Below are positions 1,042 through 19,096 of a DNA stretch of 64,000 nt, in pieces. The notes beneath the pieces are model-generated. The model made no database searches. It saw only the letters and a list, made by a program, of their open reading frames with translations, and had not been told where the DNA came from. Where the stretch lies: assembly GCF_900172365.1 (NCBI RefSeq), contig NZ_FWFJ01000005.1, positions 62,001 through 126,000 on the forward strand, read 5' to 3'. Within the stretch, counting starts at the first letter, position 1, and each line of letters starts with the position of its first letter. The position numbers and the translations under genes were made by a program. Source of the DNA: Roseovarius gaetbuli. GTDB taxonomy: Bacteria > Pseudomonadota > Alphaproteobacteria > Rhodobacterales > Rhodobacteraceae.

Positions 1042-3243
1042 ATGAGCCTTGCCAATAAGCTGGCAGAGGAACGGCGCGCCCGATTGGCCGCCGAACGGCT
1101 GCTGGAACAGAAACAGGCGGAGTTGCAATCCGCCAACCGAAAGCTGGGCAAGCACGCGCGCGCCCTGTCCCACGAGATTGTCGAAACCCGTGCTCAGGTT
1201 CAGACGGTTCGTGATGAAAATCAGCGCGTCAAATCCGACCTTCACGTTGCCAATCAAAAGGTTGAAATCGCCGAACGCCGCCTGTGGCATTCGATCGAGA
1301 CGATTCAGGACGGGTTTGCCTTTTTCGACAATGACAGCCGCATGATCGCCGCCAATCATGCCTATCTCGCGGTGTTTGAAGGGCTGGAGGCGGTCGAACC
1401 CGGCGTCAGCTATATCGAGATTTTGCAATTCATCACCGAAGAAGGGATCGTGAACATCGGTGACATGACCCCGGTAGCGTGGCGCGAAAAGATGCTGGAT
1501 CGGTGGCAATCCACCGCGCCGGAGCCCGAGGTGGTGCGGCTTTGGTCCGGTGAATATATCAAGCTGATTGATCAGCGCGGCCACGGTGGTGACATGGTGA
1601 GCCTTGCACTCAATATCACCGATACGATCCGCCATGAAAAAGAGCTTCAAGAGGCGCGCCGCAAGGCCGAGGCGGCCAACCGGGCCAAATCATCCTTCCT
1701 CGCCAATATGAGCCATGAAATCCGCACCCCGATGAATGGGGTTGTGGGCATGGCCGAATTGCTGGGCGATACCGACCTGACCGACGAGCAGCGCCTTTAT
1801 GCCAGCAGGATCAAGCATTCCGGCGAGGCGCTTTTGGTGATCATCAACGACGTCTTGGATTACTCGAAAATCGAGGCGGAAAAGCTTGTTCTTCATGAAG
1901 AACCGTTTGACCTTGAGCGCTGTATTCACGAGCTCATCACCCTGCTTCAGGCCAATGCCCGCGACAAGGGCCTCGAACTTTTGGTCGATTACGACATGTT
2001 CCTGCCGACGCGGTTTGTCGGTGATCCGGGGCGCATCCGCCAGATCATGACCAACCTTCTGGGCAATGCTGTCAAGTTTACCGAGTCCGGGCATGTCTTG
2101 ATGCGCGTCACCGGCATGCCGTCGGGCGAGGGTGAAAAGGCCACGCTTCACATCACGATTGAGGATACCGGCATCGGCATTCCCGCCGAGAAGATCGACC
2201 ATATCTTTGGCGAATTCAATCAGGTCGATGATGAAAGCAACCGCAAGTTCGAGGGCACCGGTCTTGGTCTTGCCATCTCGCAAAAGCTGATTCGGCTGAT
2301 GGATGGCAAGATCTGGGTCGAATCCGAGTATGGCAAAGGCTCGACCTTCGGGTTTTCCATCGCGCTGCCGGTGGATGAGGCGGAACAGGACGATTGCCTG
2401 CAATTGCCCGAGGGGTTGAGCCGCGCGATGATTGTCGAGCCGCAGGAAGTGACCCGCTCGATCCTTGAGCGCCAGCTTGCAGTTCTCGGGGTCGAGTCGG
2501 TCTGTTACCAGAACGGCGAAGAGGCCCTGGCACAGATTGGCCCCGGCATCGACCTGGTGGTCACCGATCACAACATGCCCCGGATGGATGGTATCGAGCT
2601 TGCAGAGGCATTGCGCGAGGCGGGGCACGCCATGCCGATTGTCCTGCTCAGTCACAACACCGGCTATGCGGAACAGGATCCCGGTCGGGTGCATTTACAG
2701 GCGGTTTTGCAAAAACCAGTGCCCCGGCGCGAGTTGTTCCACGCGCTTGCCGCACTGGCGACGGGCAAGGTGCCAGGACCGCAATTGCCCGAAGAGCCAG
2801 AGATTGACGATACCCCCGGTCGCGCCATGCGGGTATTGGCCGCCGAGGACAACAAGACCAACCGCCTTGTGTTTTCCAAGATGATCAAATCCTTGGATAT
2901 CAACCTGAAGTTTGCAGAAAACGGCCATGAGGCCCTGGCGTTCTTTCAATCCTTCAAACCCGACATCGTGTTCATGGACATCTCGATGCCCGGCATGGAT
3001 GGCAAGGAGGCGACCCAGCATATCCGCCAAATCGAGGCCGCAACCGGCGGCCATGTGCCGATCGTGGCGATGACCGCCCATGCGATGGAGGGCGATGAAA
3101 CTGGGATTTTGGCGGCCGGGCTTGATCATTACATGACCAAACCCCTGCGCAAGGACACCATAATCGGCCATGTCATCGACGCCTGCCCGCCCGACGTGCG
3201 CCCGCCAGAGGGCGTGGCCGAGGATATTCAGGCCTCGGGGTAA
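1042..3243 (+). CDS. Hybrid sensor histidine kinase with two receiver domains
   Basis: A 733-residue cytoplasmic signalling protein. An N-terminal coiled coil (about 1-80, rich in Lys/Glu/Arg heptads) leads into a PAS-like sensor domain (about 82-200), a HisKA domain with the phospho-acceptor His225 in [10 protein letters not shown], a HATPase domain (N box, GTGLGLAIS), then two receiver domains. The phospho-acceptor aspartates are Asp509 (TDHNMP) and Asp646 ([11 protein letters not shown]). No transmembrane segment is visible, so the signal is probably internal. The first receiver is less canonical than the second. The gene starts at an ATG after GGAGGACAGGC, and its 3' end overlaps the oppositely oriented yaaA by 16 bp. 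No partner regulator lies next to it, so the pathway is unknown. Confidence 0.9.
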
Positions 3244-7156: not shown

Positions 7157-8542
7157 ATGGCAGAGATTTCACCGCGCAAACGGATCTGGGGCTGGTTTTT
7201 CTTTGATTGGGCAAGCCAGCCTTATCACACCCTGCTGGTTACCTTTATCTTCGGGCCGTTCTTTGCCTCGATCGCGTCGGATTATTTCATCGCCTCGGGC
7301 CTGAGCGAAGACCTCGCCGATGCCCGCGCGCAAACCATGTGGTCCTATTGCCTGACGGTGACGGGTTTGCTGATCGGGCTTGGCGCGCCAATCATGGGGG
7401 CCTTTGCCGATACCACCGGCAAGCGGCTTCCTTGGATCGTTGCGTTTTCGGCGATGTATGTGCTGGGCGCGACCGCGCTCTGGTGGACCAACCCGGATGG
7501 GTCGAACCTGTGGTGGGGGCTTATGGCCTTTGGTTTTGGCTTTGTCGGTGCGGAATACGCGCTAATCTTCATCAACTCGCAACTGCCCTCGCTTGGCACG
7601 GCCGAAGAGGTGGGCGATTTGTCGGGCTCGGGCTTTGCCTTTGGTTATCTCGGCGGGGTTCTGTCGCTGATGATCATGCTGTTGCTGTTTGTCGAGCAAC
7701 CAAGCGGCAAGACCCTGATCGGGCTGGCCCCGGCCTTTGGGCTTGATCCCGAATTGCGCCAAGGCACGCGGTTTGTCGGGCCGTTCACCGCGCTTTGGTT
7801 CGCGGTCTTCATGGTGCCCTATTTCATGTGGGTGCGTGATGTCGGCCCGCCGCGTCAGGGGCGCGGCGTGGGCGCGGCGCTTGGCATGCTGAGCAAGACG
7901 ATCAGAGGCCTGCGCCACCGGATCAGCCTAAGCACCTATCTTGGCTCGTCGATGTTTTACCGCGACGCCTTGAACGGGCTTTATGGGTTTGGCGGCACCT
8001 ATGCGATCCTTGTGCTGAACTGGTCGATTGTGTCGGTGGGCATCTTTGGCATCATCGGCGCGATTTCTGCGGCTTTGTTCAGCTGGATCGGCGGCAAGGC
8101 CGATAAGCGCTTTGGCCCCAAGCCGGTGATCATCCTCGCGATCTGGGCGCTGATCGCGGTCTGCGTGACGATTGTCGGCATGGACCGGACCCAGATTTTC
8201 GGTATCCCGCTTGGGGTGGGATCAAAACTGCCGGATATGATCTTTTTTGGCTGCGGCGTGTTGATCGGCGGCTTTGGCGGCATGCTTCAATCCGCCAGCC
8301 GCACGATGATGGTGCGCCATACCGATTCGGCGGCGCCAACCGAGAATTTCGGCCTTTACGGGCTATCCGGGCGCGCCACGGCGTTCATGGCGCCAGCCCT
8401 GATCGGGCTTGTCACCACGCTTAGCGGCAGCGCGCGCATTGGGGTTTCTCCTGTCATTTTCCTTTTCCTGATCGGCCTTGTCCTGCTACGCTGGGTCAAA
8501 TCCGAAGGGGACAGGGAAACATGGGCGGCTATCTCAGACTAA
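7157..8542 (+). CDS. MFS transporter, UMF1/Atg22-like family
   Basis: A roughly 461-residue, 11-12-helix inner-membrane transporter. The start KRIWGWFFFDWASQPYHTL is diagnostic of the UMF1 (unknown major facilitator 1, Atg22-like) family, whose yeast member exports amino acids from the vacuole; bacterial substrates are not established. Two ATGs six bases apart (7151 and 7157) both have acceptable Shine-Dalgarno sequences; 7157 follows AAGGGA by 6 bases. Its last 22 bases overlap the start of mepA, implying translational coupling. Confidence 0.9.
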   Translation: MAEISPRKRIWGWFFFDWASQPYHTLLVTFIFGPFFASIASDYFIASGLSEDLADARAQTMWSYCLTVTGLLIGLGAPIMGAFADTTGKRLPWIVAFSAMYVLGATALWWTNPDGSNLWWGLMAFGFGFVGAEYALIFINSQLPSLGTAEEVGDLSGSGFAFGYLGGVLSLMIMLLLFVEQPSGKTLIGLAPAFGLDPELRQGTRFVGPFTALWFAVFMVPYFMWVRDVGPPRQGRGVGAALGMLSKTIRGLRHRISLSTYLGSSMFYRDALNGLYGFGGTYAILVLNWSIVSVGIFGIIGAISAALFSWIGGKADKRFGPKPVIILAIWALIAVCVTIVGMDRTQIFGIPLGVGSKLPDMIFFGCGVLIGGFGGMLQSASRTMMVRHTDSAAPTENFGLYGLSGRATAFMAPALIGLVTTLSGSARIGVSPVIFLFLIGLVLLRWVKSEGDRETWAAISD

Positions 8543-9441
8543 GCGTTCTTGTCATGGCTTTGGCGGGCTGCGTGCAATCCGCGCCAGAGCCGAAACCAAC
8601 CGGCACTCTGTCAAGCCAGAGCATTCCCGCGTCGATGCGCGGGGTGCAGGCGAAACAGCTTTTCGGCGCGCATGGGCATGGCTCGGCGCAATCGCCCGCC
8701 CCGCTTGGGGGCTATGCCAAGGGCTGTATCGCGGGGGCGACGACCCTGCCGGAAACCGGCCCCACATGGCAGGCGATGCGCCTGAGCCGGAACCGCAACT
8801 GGGGTCACCCGGAAACCATTGACATGATCAAGACCCTGTCGCGCAAGGCCGCGGCGCAACCCGGTTGGAGCGGGCTTTATGTCGGCGACATAAGCCAGCC
8901 GCGCGGCGGGCCGATGATATCGGGGCACCGCAGCCATCAGATGGGTCTTGATGCAGATATCTGGCTCAGGCCCGCCGATAATCTCTCGCTTAGTCGCACG
9001 CAGCGCGAGGACATCTCGTCGATCTCGATGCGCCGCGCCAATGGCGCCTATACCAACAGCAGCTGGACCCGCGCGCATCATGAAATCGTCAAAGCCGCCG
9101 CGCAAGACCCGCGCACCGCACGGATATTCATCTTTCCCGGTGCCAAGGTGAAGATGTGCAACGATGAAAAGGGCGACCGGGCGTGGCTTCGCAAGGTGCG
9201 GCCCTGGTACGGGCATCACTATCACTTCCATGTGCGGCTGAATTGTCCGGACAACGTTTCGGGCTGTCAGCCGCAGGCGGTGCCGCCGCCGGGCGATGGC
9301 TGCGCCGAGGCGCAAACATGGGTCCGCAACATCCTCAACCCGCCGCCGCCTGACCCGAATGCGCCCAAGCCCAAGCCGCGCCGCGAATTGACGATGCAGG
9401 ACCTGCCGCGCCAATGTGTGGCCGTGTTGCAGGCACAATAA
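8521..9441 (+). CDS. mepA: Penicillin-insensitive murein endopeptidase MepA (lipoprotein)
   Basis: A 306-residue LAS-family D,D-endopeptidase that cuts cross-links in peptidoglycan. The N-terminus carries a lipoprotein signal with lipobox LAGC near residue 18, so here it appears to be a lipoprotein, unlike the soluble periplasmic E. coli enzyme. Zinc ligands are visible in SGHRSHQMGLDADIW and in HYHFHVRL. The C-terminal tail (about 265-306) is Pro-rich with PPPPDPNAPKPKPRR and has no clear domain. The gene overlaps the upstream MFS gene. Confidence 0.94.
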   Translation: MGGYLRLSVLVMALAGCVQSAPEPKPTGTLSSQSIPASMRGVQAKQLFGAHGHGSAQSPAPLGGYAKGCIAGATTLPETGPTWQAMRLSRNRNWGHPETIDMIKTLSRKAAAQPGWSGLYVGDISQPRGGPMISGHRSHQMGLDADIWLRPADNLSLSRTQREDISSISMRRANGAYTNSSWTRAHHEIVKAAAQDPRTARIFIFPGAKVKMCNDEKGDRAWLRKVRPWYGHHYHFHVRLNCPDNVSGCQPQAVPPPGDGCAEAQTWVRNILNPPPPDPNAPKPKPRRELTMQDLPRQCVAVLQAQ

Positions 9442-9486: not shown

Positions 9487-9515
9487 TTGACAAACGCAAA
9501 ATTTGTGGCAGGCTA
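9487..9515 (+). promoter_or_regulatory. Candidate sigma-70 promoter of the small leader gene
   Basis: A consensus -35 hexamer TTGACA (9487-9492) is followed after exactly 17 bases by AGGCTA (9510-9515), a poor match to the -10 consensus but in the expected place. Transcription would start near 9522, just ahead of the strong ribosome binding site at 9536-9544. Confidence 0.45.
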
Positions 9516-9549
9516 GGGATGAAATCAACAAGCGAAAGGAGGTGGTCCA

Positions 9550-9606
9550 GTGTCTACAGAGGTATTGGAGCGAGGTGTCGGAACAGTTCAGGAGAGCATC
9601 GTCTAG
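9550..9606 (+). CDS. 18-residue leader peptide or small protein upstream of arfB
   Basis: A GTG-started ORF of 18 codons (MSTEVLERGVGTVQESIV, stop TAG) preceded by AAGGAGGTG at 9536-9544 with 7-base spacing, nearly the full complement of the 16S rRNA 3' end and one of the strongest ribosome binding sites in the window. The Shine-Dalgarno core GGAGGTGG (9538-9545) is exactly complementary to CCACCTCC at 9655-9662, and an intrinsic terminator follows, so the peptide sits inside a structured 5' element or small transcript. I do not recognise the peptide. It could be a regulatory leader of arfB or an independent small gene. Confidence 0.5.
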   Translation: MSTEVLERGVGTVQESIV

Positions 9607-9654
9607 GGCAGCCCCGGGGCGAAAAAGCCATCCGAATTGGTGCGCCTAACCGGC

Positions 9655-9662
9655 CCACCTCC
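9655..9662 (+). promoter_or_regulatory. Anti-Shine-Dalgarno element in the leader transcript
   Basis: CCACCTCC pairs without mismatch with the ribosome binding site core at 9538-9545 about 110 bases upstream; the pairing resumes for two G-C pairs after one mismatch. It also resembles the CACCUCC end of 16S rRNA. If formed, the helix would close translation of the 18-codon ORF. Confidence 0.45.
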
Positions 9663-9674
9663 GCTAACTTCTAG

Positions 9675-9702
9675 AGGGCCGTTCCGGGATCGGGGCGGCC
9701 CT
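9675..9702 (+). terminator. Intrinsic terminator between the leader ORF and arfB
   Basis: A 7-bp stem AGGGCCG (9675-9681) with CGGCCCT (9696-9702), containing an inner CCG/CGG pairing, followed by TTCG. The U-tract is short, so efficiency is uncertain. Its place before arfB allows either a stand-alone small RNA or attenuation of arfB. Confidence 0.6.
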
Positions 9703-9758
9703 TTCGATTGGCTTTGGGCCGGAACAGGTCTAAAACCGCGTTGAAACCGGAAAGTCCC

Positions 9759-10181
9759 ATGCTGAAAATCAACGATCAGATCACGATTGCCGACTGGGAG
9801 CTGACGGAGCAGTTCATGCGCGCCTCTGGCCCCGGCGGGCAGAACGTGAACAAGGTCAGCAGCGCGGTCGAGCTTCGCTTCGAGGCCGAGCGCTCGCCAA
9901 GCCTGCCTGATCCGGTCAAGGCGCGGCTGCGGCGACTTGCGGGGCGGCGCTGGTCGAAAGAGGGCGCCTTGATCATCCAGTGCGACGAAACCCGAAGCCA
10001 GGCCCGCAACCGCGAAATCGCCCGCGACCGGCTTGCCGCCCTGATCCTTGAGGCCACGCACAAGCCCAAACGCCGGGTGGCGACACGCCCGACGCTTGGC
10101 TCGAAAAAGCGTCGGCTCAAGGCCAAGAAGGTGCGCGGCGAGGTCAAGGCGATGCGCGGTCGCGTCGACGGTGAAGAATAA
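9759..10181 (+). CDS. arfB: Alternative ribosome-rescue factor ArfB (YaeJ/ICT1-like)
   Basis: A 140-residue peptidyl-tRNA hydrolase of the class I release-factor family that frees ribosomes stalled on non-stop mRNAs. The catalytic GGQ motif lies in SGPGGQNVNKVSSAVELRF (about residues 26-28), and the C-terminal tail is strongly basic (KPKRR, KKRRLKAKKVR), as needed to enter the empty mRNA channel. There is no codon-recognition domain, so it is not PrfA/PrfB. The start at 9759 follows GGAAAG by a few bases. It sits downstream of the structured leader element at 9487-9702. Confidence 0.95.
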   Translation: MLKINDQITIADWELTEQFMRASGPGGQNVNKVSSAVELRFEAERSPSLPDPVKARLRRLAGRRWSKEGALIIQCDETRSQARNREIARDRLAALILEATHKPKRRVATRPTLGSKKRRLKAKKVRGEVKAMRGRVDGEE

Positions 10182-19039: not shown

Positions 19040-19067
19040 AAAAGGGCCGCCCTTGGGCGACCCTTTT
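19040..19067 (-). terminator. Intrinsic terminator downstream of the HU gene
   Basis: AAAAGGG (19040-19046) pairs with CCCTTTT (19061-19067), enclosing CGCCC/GGGCG. On the minus strand the stem is followed by the U-run, so it terminates the HU transcript; the A/T ends would also allow function in the other direction. Confidence 0.8.
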
Positions 19068-19096
19068 ACGAAACTCGTTGCAAGTGCAAGTAGGCT

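Follow-up and report, generated by a model that had tools for sequence, protein, structure and literature searches.

The closest described relative of the RNA presented here is CC2171, a Caulobacter sRNA that is listed in Rfam as RF01867 and for which we found no function in the literature; as far as the accessible parts of the sources go, it is named in table rows of the Rfam release paper and in a Mesorhizobium prediction list. A comparable mode of action has been proposed for the duf1127_1 leader of S. meliloti, which contains a short translated uORF whose ribosome-binding site pairs with its own RNA and for which its authors propose a monitoring of ribosome availability, so that such a principle is plausible in the class. 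However, Rho and C-rich codons are proposed to take part in the attenuation by this leader, its downstream gene is a different one, and a complement to the 16S tail is not mentioned in the accessible passages of the report (PMC12218461). In Staphylococcus aureus, pairing to the 16S tail reaches past the canonical Shine-Dalgarno (SD) sequence, and the accessible text describes this as a feature on which the species relies (PMC13009471), whereas the block discussed below is near-unique in its genome. For Caulobacter, passages of PMC4117421 state that 75.4% of the CDSs have no SD and that translation was found for two RNAs that had earlier been predicted to be non-coding. Finally, rnTrpL/peTrpL (PMC10117765; PMC7298713) and Pos19 (PMC5036791) are likewise transcripts of sRNA size with a translated short ORF; in the passages at hand, peTrpL differs in that its tested role is that of a peptide, and Pos19 in that its authors did not find it outside R. 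sphaeroides, and neither was related to the RNA before arfB in any test made.

In the 64-kb stretch of Roseovarius gaetbuli DNA that was analysed as a whole (the window), positions 9521-9704 represent a structured RNA gene of about 180 nt between mepA and arfB (Table 1). The SD, the 18-codon ORF and the complementary octamer that had been noted in this region were all recovered. The RNA matches RF01867 over the full length of the model (9526-9701, model positions 1-159 of 159, 50.5 bits, E 6.1e-9). Because this score lies below the gathering score of 75 bits, a standard Rfam scan misses the RNA, and the scan of the 64-kb window accordingly returned no Rfam match at gathering score, nor a tRNA. 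Our main reading, to which we assign as a whole a rough probability of 45%, is that the RNA before arfB represents, within a class-wide RNA related to RF01867 (CC2171), the branch of the Rhodobacterales, and that it would be closed on itself and opened by the 30S subunit as a readout of ribosome availability, with read-through into arfB as one output. If the RNA indeed measures free 30S subunits, it would provide a direct genetic handle on translation-capacity sensing in Alphaproteobacteria and would assign a function to an sRNA family that had none in our literature search. While the family is already known by name, a literature search that covered few subscription journals returned no report that the RNA complements the 16S tail, contains a short ORF under apparent selection, forms a Rhodobacterales branch closed by SD:octamer pairing or is linked to arfB, and no functional study of it.

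Table 1 Features of the RNA gene and its neighbours (positions refer to the window).
Feature	Position	Strand	Details
mepA	8521-9441		upstream of the RNA
Putative promoter	9487-9514	+	-35 TTGACA (9487-9492) and weak extended -10; predicted start ~9521-9523
16S-tail-complementary block (extended SD)	9534-9550	+	17 nt, one G-U, GAAAGGAGGTGGTCCAG
SD core	9538-9545	+	GGAGGTGG
Closing helix, SD-side arm	9538-9543	+	pairs with 9657-9662 in 97.8% of 317 cells; no variation on the SD side
Start-codon hairpin	9546-9569	+	9546-9554 with 9561-9569; 95.6% paired, 2/9 pairs changed on both sides
ORF, 18 codons	9550-9606	+	GTG (9550) to TAG (9604-9606); peptide MSTEVLERGVGTVQESIV
Helix	9574-9656	+	9574-9581 with 9650-9656; 92.7% paired, 3/7 pairs changed on both sides
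Helix	9584-9638	+	9584-9592 with 9630-9638; 81.7% paired, 6/7 pairs changed on both sides
Anti-SD octamer	9655-9662	+	CCACCTCC, exact complement of 9538-9545, mimic of the 16S tail
Terminator-like hairpin	9673-9704	+	GC-rich, 12-14 bp, three T only (9702-9704)
arfB	9759-10181	+	alternative ribosome rescue aminoacyl-tRNA hydrolase; NCBIfam NF006718, 190.6 bits (cut-off 100)

The relation to RF01867 is apparent from the full-length match, the 5' block CAACAAnCGAAAGGAGGUGAUCCAGUGUCU, the terminal hairpin and class-wide intermediates that score above and below the cut-off. In the alignment, the conserved 5' block that precedes GUGUCU in RF01867 is present in the RNA before arfB, whereas the closing helix of RF01867, in which codons after GUGUCU pair with a stretch before the terminator, has unpaired positions in both arms here. 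The Rhodobacterales RNA further differs from RF01867 in its 18-codon ORF and in arfB, which mostly lies behind it. RF01867 matches were obtained in 160 of the 198 genomes of the family (one genome per genus), none of them above the gathering score, and our own model, built from 54 Rhodobacteraceae-type sequences, found matches in 106 of 120 family genomes, among them genomes that had supplied rows to it. Among the loci chosen by RF01867 covariance score, 28 of 30 carry the exact block. Outside the family, 18 of 20 distant loci that we picked match the full model with E ≤ 0.01, four of them above the cut-off, although the pattern used to retrieve them belongs to the RF01867 model itself, so the match is not independent. 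A second RF01867 match in the own genome (L002, window 2994-3144, 29.2 bits) lies inside a histidine-kinase-like frame (1042-3243) and was rejected as chance. On the minus strand, window positions 19041-19087 reach 17.4 bits with the Rhodobacteraceae model over 47 nt only, which is probably a chance hairpin.

The sequence ahead of the start codon had originally been described as a near-perfect SD. The SD core is present, but the complementarity extends beyond it and comprises the whole 3' tail of the 16S rRNA, which was read in the window's own genome (GGCTGGATCACCTCCTTTCT at the 3' end of the gene, L032 46-1514) and pairs with 9534-9550. Since the last of the 17 pairs uses the G of the start codon and the letter before the start varies in other lineages, we regard 15 nt as the core of the block. 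The predicted energy of the duplex with the 16S tail is -31.6 kcal/mol, compared with -11.6 kcal/mol for AAGGAGGU and with -17.7 kcal/mol for the best duplex obtained when 87 long frames of the window were scanned at their start sites. The block is near-unique within its own genome: with up to one mismatch, AAAGGAGGTGRTCC occurs at four places in the 4.13 Mb draft assembly, namely in the 16S gene itself, in the RNA before arfB and inside two long open frames. Most genes of Caulobacter lack an SD according to passages of PMC4117421, yet one short RNA of many genomes of the class matches the whole 16S tail. In VSHCH-type loci (e.g. L192, L125, L061), the codons for T-W-I-V-A/T-S spell CTGGATCGTCRCCTCC, which resembles the 16S 3' end CTGGATCACCTCC and represents an internal mimic of the 16S tail facing the block.

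Screening for the block revealed that it is widespread in the class. Allowing one mismatch, GAAAGGAGGTGRTCCAGTG was found in 54 of 385 class genomes and its reversed pattern in one of 385. By hand count, the first letter of the start codon in these 54 genomes is G in 36, A in 14, T in four and C in none, and no mismatch fell on the T or G of the start codon, although one was permitted anywhere. Exact matches to AAGGAGGTGRTCCNDTG occurred in 52 of 299 genomes of the phylum (reversed pattern: three of 299), directly before a start codon in 51 of 86 class genomes and in one of 213 others (hand tally), with one match per genome except for one genome with two. Conversely, the block is absent from 35 of the 86 class genomes when the exact pattern is used and from 331 of the 385 with the pattern allowing one mismatch. 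A scan of named genomes returned at least 118 loci; among the 80 titles listed, two are Gemmatimonad MAGs and three read Proteobacteria only, and we take the remaining ones to carry alphaproteobacterial names. Both the far and the named loci were fetched by patterns containing the block and the start codon, so conservation within these patterns is not independent evidence. L002, the Gemmatimonad records L072 and L097, and L146 were left out of later tallies, and genes called around the far loci as the longest ORF proved unreliable at the G+C of these sequences and were discarded. The class and the family counted here are taken to be Alphaproteobacteria and Rhodobacteraceae from the titles of named relatives.

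Conservation of the ORF concerns its frame more than its product. A length of exactly 18 codons was found for 29 of the 30 loci that had been selected by RF01867 score and for 54 of the 55 of the Rhodobacteraceae type. In the latter, codon 19 is TAG (23), TGA (21), TAA (10) or CCG (1) and never TGG, though the separate letters predict it (Fisher p 9e-8 over the 55 loci, with relatedness ignored). None of the 55 loci has an in-frame stop inside the ORF, while 25 of the 55 contain one in each of the other two frames; since the type was sorted by a pattern over approximately the first 11 peptide residues, the frame is open there by construction, but not over codons 12-19. Across 188 class loci the ORF comprises 14-59 codons and is shorter than 14 codons in none, compared with about 38% in other frames. 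For a set of 29 sequences, codons 2-12 give a pN/pS of 0.56 and codons 13-18 one of 1.15, and the value for codons 2-18 (0.81) is not below those of the other two frames (0.72 and 0.79); L005, with an odd 26-codon frame, was dropped from this set and from A2, and L074 and L077 were dropped from A2. An L-E-x-x-V-G-T core is kept among the 29 sequences. Start, length and stop look as if they were under selection, and the last third of the peptide is not kept.

These features bear on the possibility that the RNA is simply a small mRNA, in which a strong SD would only ensure that a useful micropeptide is made in quantity, with the fold protecting the mRNA. The apparent selection on start and stop, the low pN/pS of codons 2-12 together with the conserved core, and four loci (L039, L053, L054, L154) that encode 54-59 aa with signal-peptide-like N-termini are consistent with this explanation, and the strong SD may serve high expression only. 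We nevertheless consider it rather unlikely, given that codons 13-18 show no such constraint, that the peptides of different lineages are unalike, and that no Pfam or NCBIfam family scored above cut-off for 10 peptides of 23-57 aa (the 18-codon peptides fall below the 20-residue limit). In addition, codons 3-5 of the VSHCH type are explicable by RNA pairing, because they can pair with a stretch located mostly just before the terminator, with all seven of seven pairs formed in 36 of 53 loci, compared with 7.0 loci expected from shuffled downstream sequence. In the four loci mentioned above, which were found by pattern, the frames of 54-59 codons lie behind the same block, as though some lineages had extended the ORF to encode a small protein that looks secreted. 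We also considered whether the rhizobial member corresponds to S. meliloti SEP1, a 23-aa protein with top translation efficiency among novel sORFs according to passages of PMC10117765; the 23 codons agree (L196-L203), but the computed pI of 5.4-6.5 deviates from the published 4.18 (PMC10117765), which makes the identity tentative at best.

The transcript is predicted to fold more stably than expected by chance, with a z-score of -2.88 and two of 200 shuffles being equally stable. The consensus fold of 53 distinct sequences comprises 49 pairs with 91.4% of the cells paired; 26 pairs show changes on both sides in a total of 136 cells, which is more than in any of 500 shuffles, with the reservation that one alignment served both for predicting the fold and for counting covariation. 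When the fold was predicted from one half of the sequences and the changes were counted in the other half, with the terminator excluded, the counts lay above all 200 shuffles in all four splits, each of which also yielded the SD:octamer helix in its prediction, although the halves contain related sequences and are not independent. One of the inner helices (9584-9592 with 9630-9638) joins codons 12-15 to sequence 3' of the stop codon. Concerning the six SD:octamer pairs, 272 of the 317 cells hold the commonest pair, 38 a G-U-compatible change and seven are unpaired. The pairing between SD and octamer is thus kept in nearly all cells, but because the SD side is invariant, the covariation that had been proposed as a check cannot arise here, and the G-U-compatible transitions count as weak evidence. 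In Rhodobacteraceae, a covarying fold that is predicted to hide both the SD and the start codon is borne out by these comparisons. This outcome agrees with the original view of a self-contained unit of promoter, ORF, structure and terminator in which the 3' half is able to close the SD. In relatives, the length and stop of the ORF and the SD:octamer pairing are conserved, so that the lack of conservation named at the outset as a refutation was not found.

As a class-wide rule, the hiding of the SD was rejected, since it holds well in Rhodobacteraceae only. The freedom of GGAGG was 0.22 over 131 loci compared with 0.29 with shuffled downstream sequence, which is a small difference, and a duplex test gave a moderate result, with 46 of 188 loci among the best 5 of 100 and none of 25 in the Sphingomonad type. 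The branches differ here: in the VSHCH type, codons 3-5 are able to form the closing pairs with sequence ahead of the terminator, and the Rhodobacterales RNA closes by SD:octamer pairing.

Based on these findings, the main reading would comprise the following steps. As long as no free 30S subunit is available, the RNA would remain closed on itself via SD:octamer pairing. A 30S subunit may then enter at the unpaired GAAA and displace the octamer along 15-17 base pairs, after which the ribosome would run over the 18 codons and unfold the inner helices. In this way the RNA would read or tie up available 30S subunits, and arfB read-through would be a family-specific output in Rhodobacteraceae. Opening the block within the RNA is predicted to cost 11.8 kcal/mol, and since this is less than the predicted gain from the 16S duplex, the process would be favoured energetically. 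The weak hiding of the SD across the class, the Sphingomonad type and an unsupported antiterminator (see below) are points against a 30S sensor. A broader version is tentative: an RNA present across the class, mostly as a single copy, would sense free 30S subunits or soak them up, its ORF would matter through a ribosome run of limited length and not through the peptide, and some lineages would have wired it to ribosome rescue by way of arfB. Small RNAs with CCUCC-type loops are known in Alphaproteobacteria, and the block could alternatively pair with such pyrimidine-rich, anti-SD-like loops, or CCACCTCC could block the SDs of mRNAs, with the ORF being secondary. Such a base-pairing sRNA would fit the relation to the sRNA family RF01867, but we regard it as very unlikely, as it leaves the selection on stop and ORF length unexplained and as not every lineage shows a clear downstream sequence complementary to the block.

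Upstream of the RNA, the consensus -35 element of the original prediction was confirmed and is kept in relatives. A TTGACA sequence with at least five of six letters is found in the stretch from -58 to -36 before the block in 47 of 55 Rhodobacteraceae-type loci, compared with eight of 55 shuffled stretches, and 44 of these 47 elements are positioned at -47 to -50. As a -10 candidate we propose the weak extended TGG-CAGGCT (hexamer CAGGCT at 9509-9514), while a promoter scan made no call here, finding no good -10 behind TTGACA. Many Rhodobacteraceae-type loci also share the sequence that separates -35 and -10 (ACACAAAATCTGTGNCA), which is partly palindromic and hints at a bound regulator, and a subgroup (e.g. 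L007, L013, L019) carries a different upstream stretch, CTTTGTG...CTTGCGTTTTCAACAG, in place of ACACAAAATCTGTGNCA. At the 3' end, the intrinsic terminator claimed earlier proved to be a strong hairpin that covaries (92.7% of the cells paired, 11 of 13 pairs changed on both sides in 53 sequences), but the hairpin, with its run of only three T, was missed by a stricter terminator scan, which requires at least five T in eight.

The downstream gene arfB encodes a protein with a single match in the whole genome, and it follows the RNA as the next, co-directional gene in 41 of 56 Rhodobacteraceae-type loci. The distance from the block to the arfB start is 180-317 nt in 37 of these 41 and 1.08-1.58 kb in the other four. 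In six loci the spacer between hairpin and arfB, estimated from the alignment start, is 14-16 nt. Some spacers appear to offer no space for a further promoter, and with such short spacers arfB probably owes its transcription to RNA polymerase reading through the weak terminator. Along the lines of the original prediction, the RNA could be a cis-acting leader of arfB, in which translation of the ORF or stalling in it would choose between termination and read-through. The co-directional arrangement, the short spacers with little room for a promoter and the short T run are in line with this idea, which we nonetheless consider unlikely. Of the 15 Rhodobacteraceae-type loci without arfB, five have less than 1 kb of sequence left, but the other 10 hold at least 1.6 kb downstream and keep the RNA. 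Moreover, there is no conserved C-terminal stalling peptide, and the one antiterminator tested (9651-9656 with the 5' arm of the hairpin) was rejected for want of covariation support, being paired in 86.8% compared with 85.9% in shuffled sequences, with 65 of 500 shuffles as high. Outside the Rhodobacteraceae type, arfB lies near one of 139 loci only, upstream and on the opposite strand (sequence of at least 1.4 kb was available downstream for 124 of the 139, and on either side for 107). Regulation of arfB is for this reason not a general role of the RNA: judging from gene order, the RNA does not depend on arfB and must act without it elsewhere in the class. The description as a leader ahead of arfB fits the Rhodobacteraceae type only, in which the gene is mostly next and co-directional, and does not extend to the RNA as a class-wide entity related to RF01867.

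Two deviating arrangements were seen among the loci with arfB. The gene lies about 1.1-1.6 kb behind the block in L066, L074, L092 and L102, compared with the usual ~0.2 kb, as if something had been inserted, and a Hyphomonadaceae MAG (L124) represents the locus with arfB beside the RNA, upstream on the other strand.
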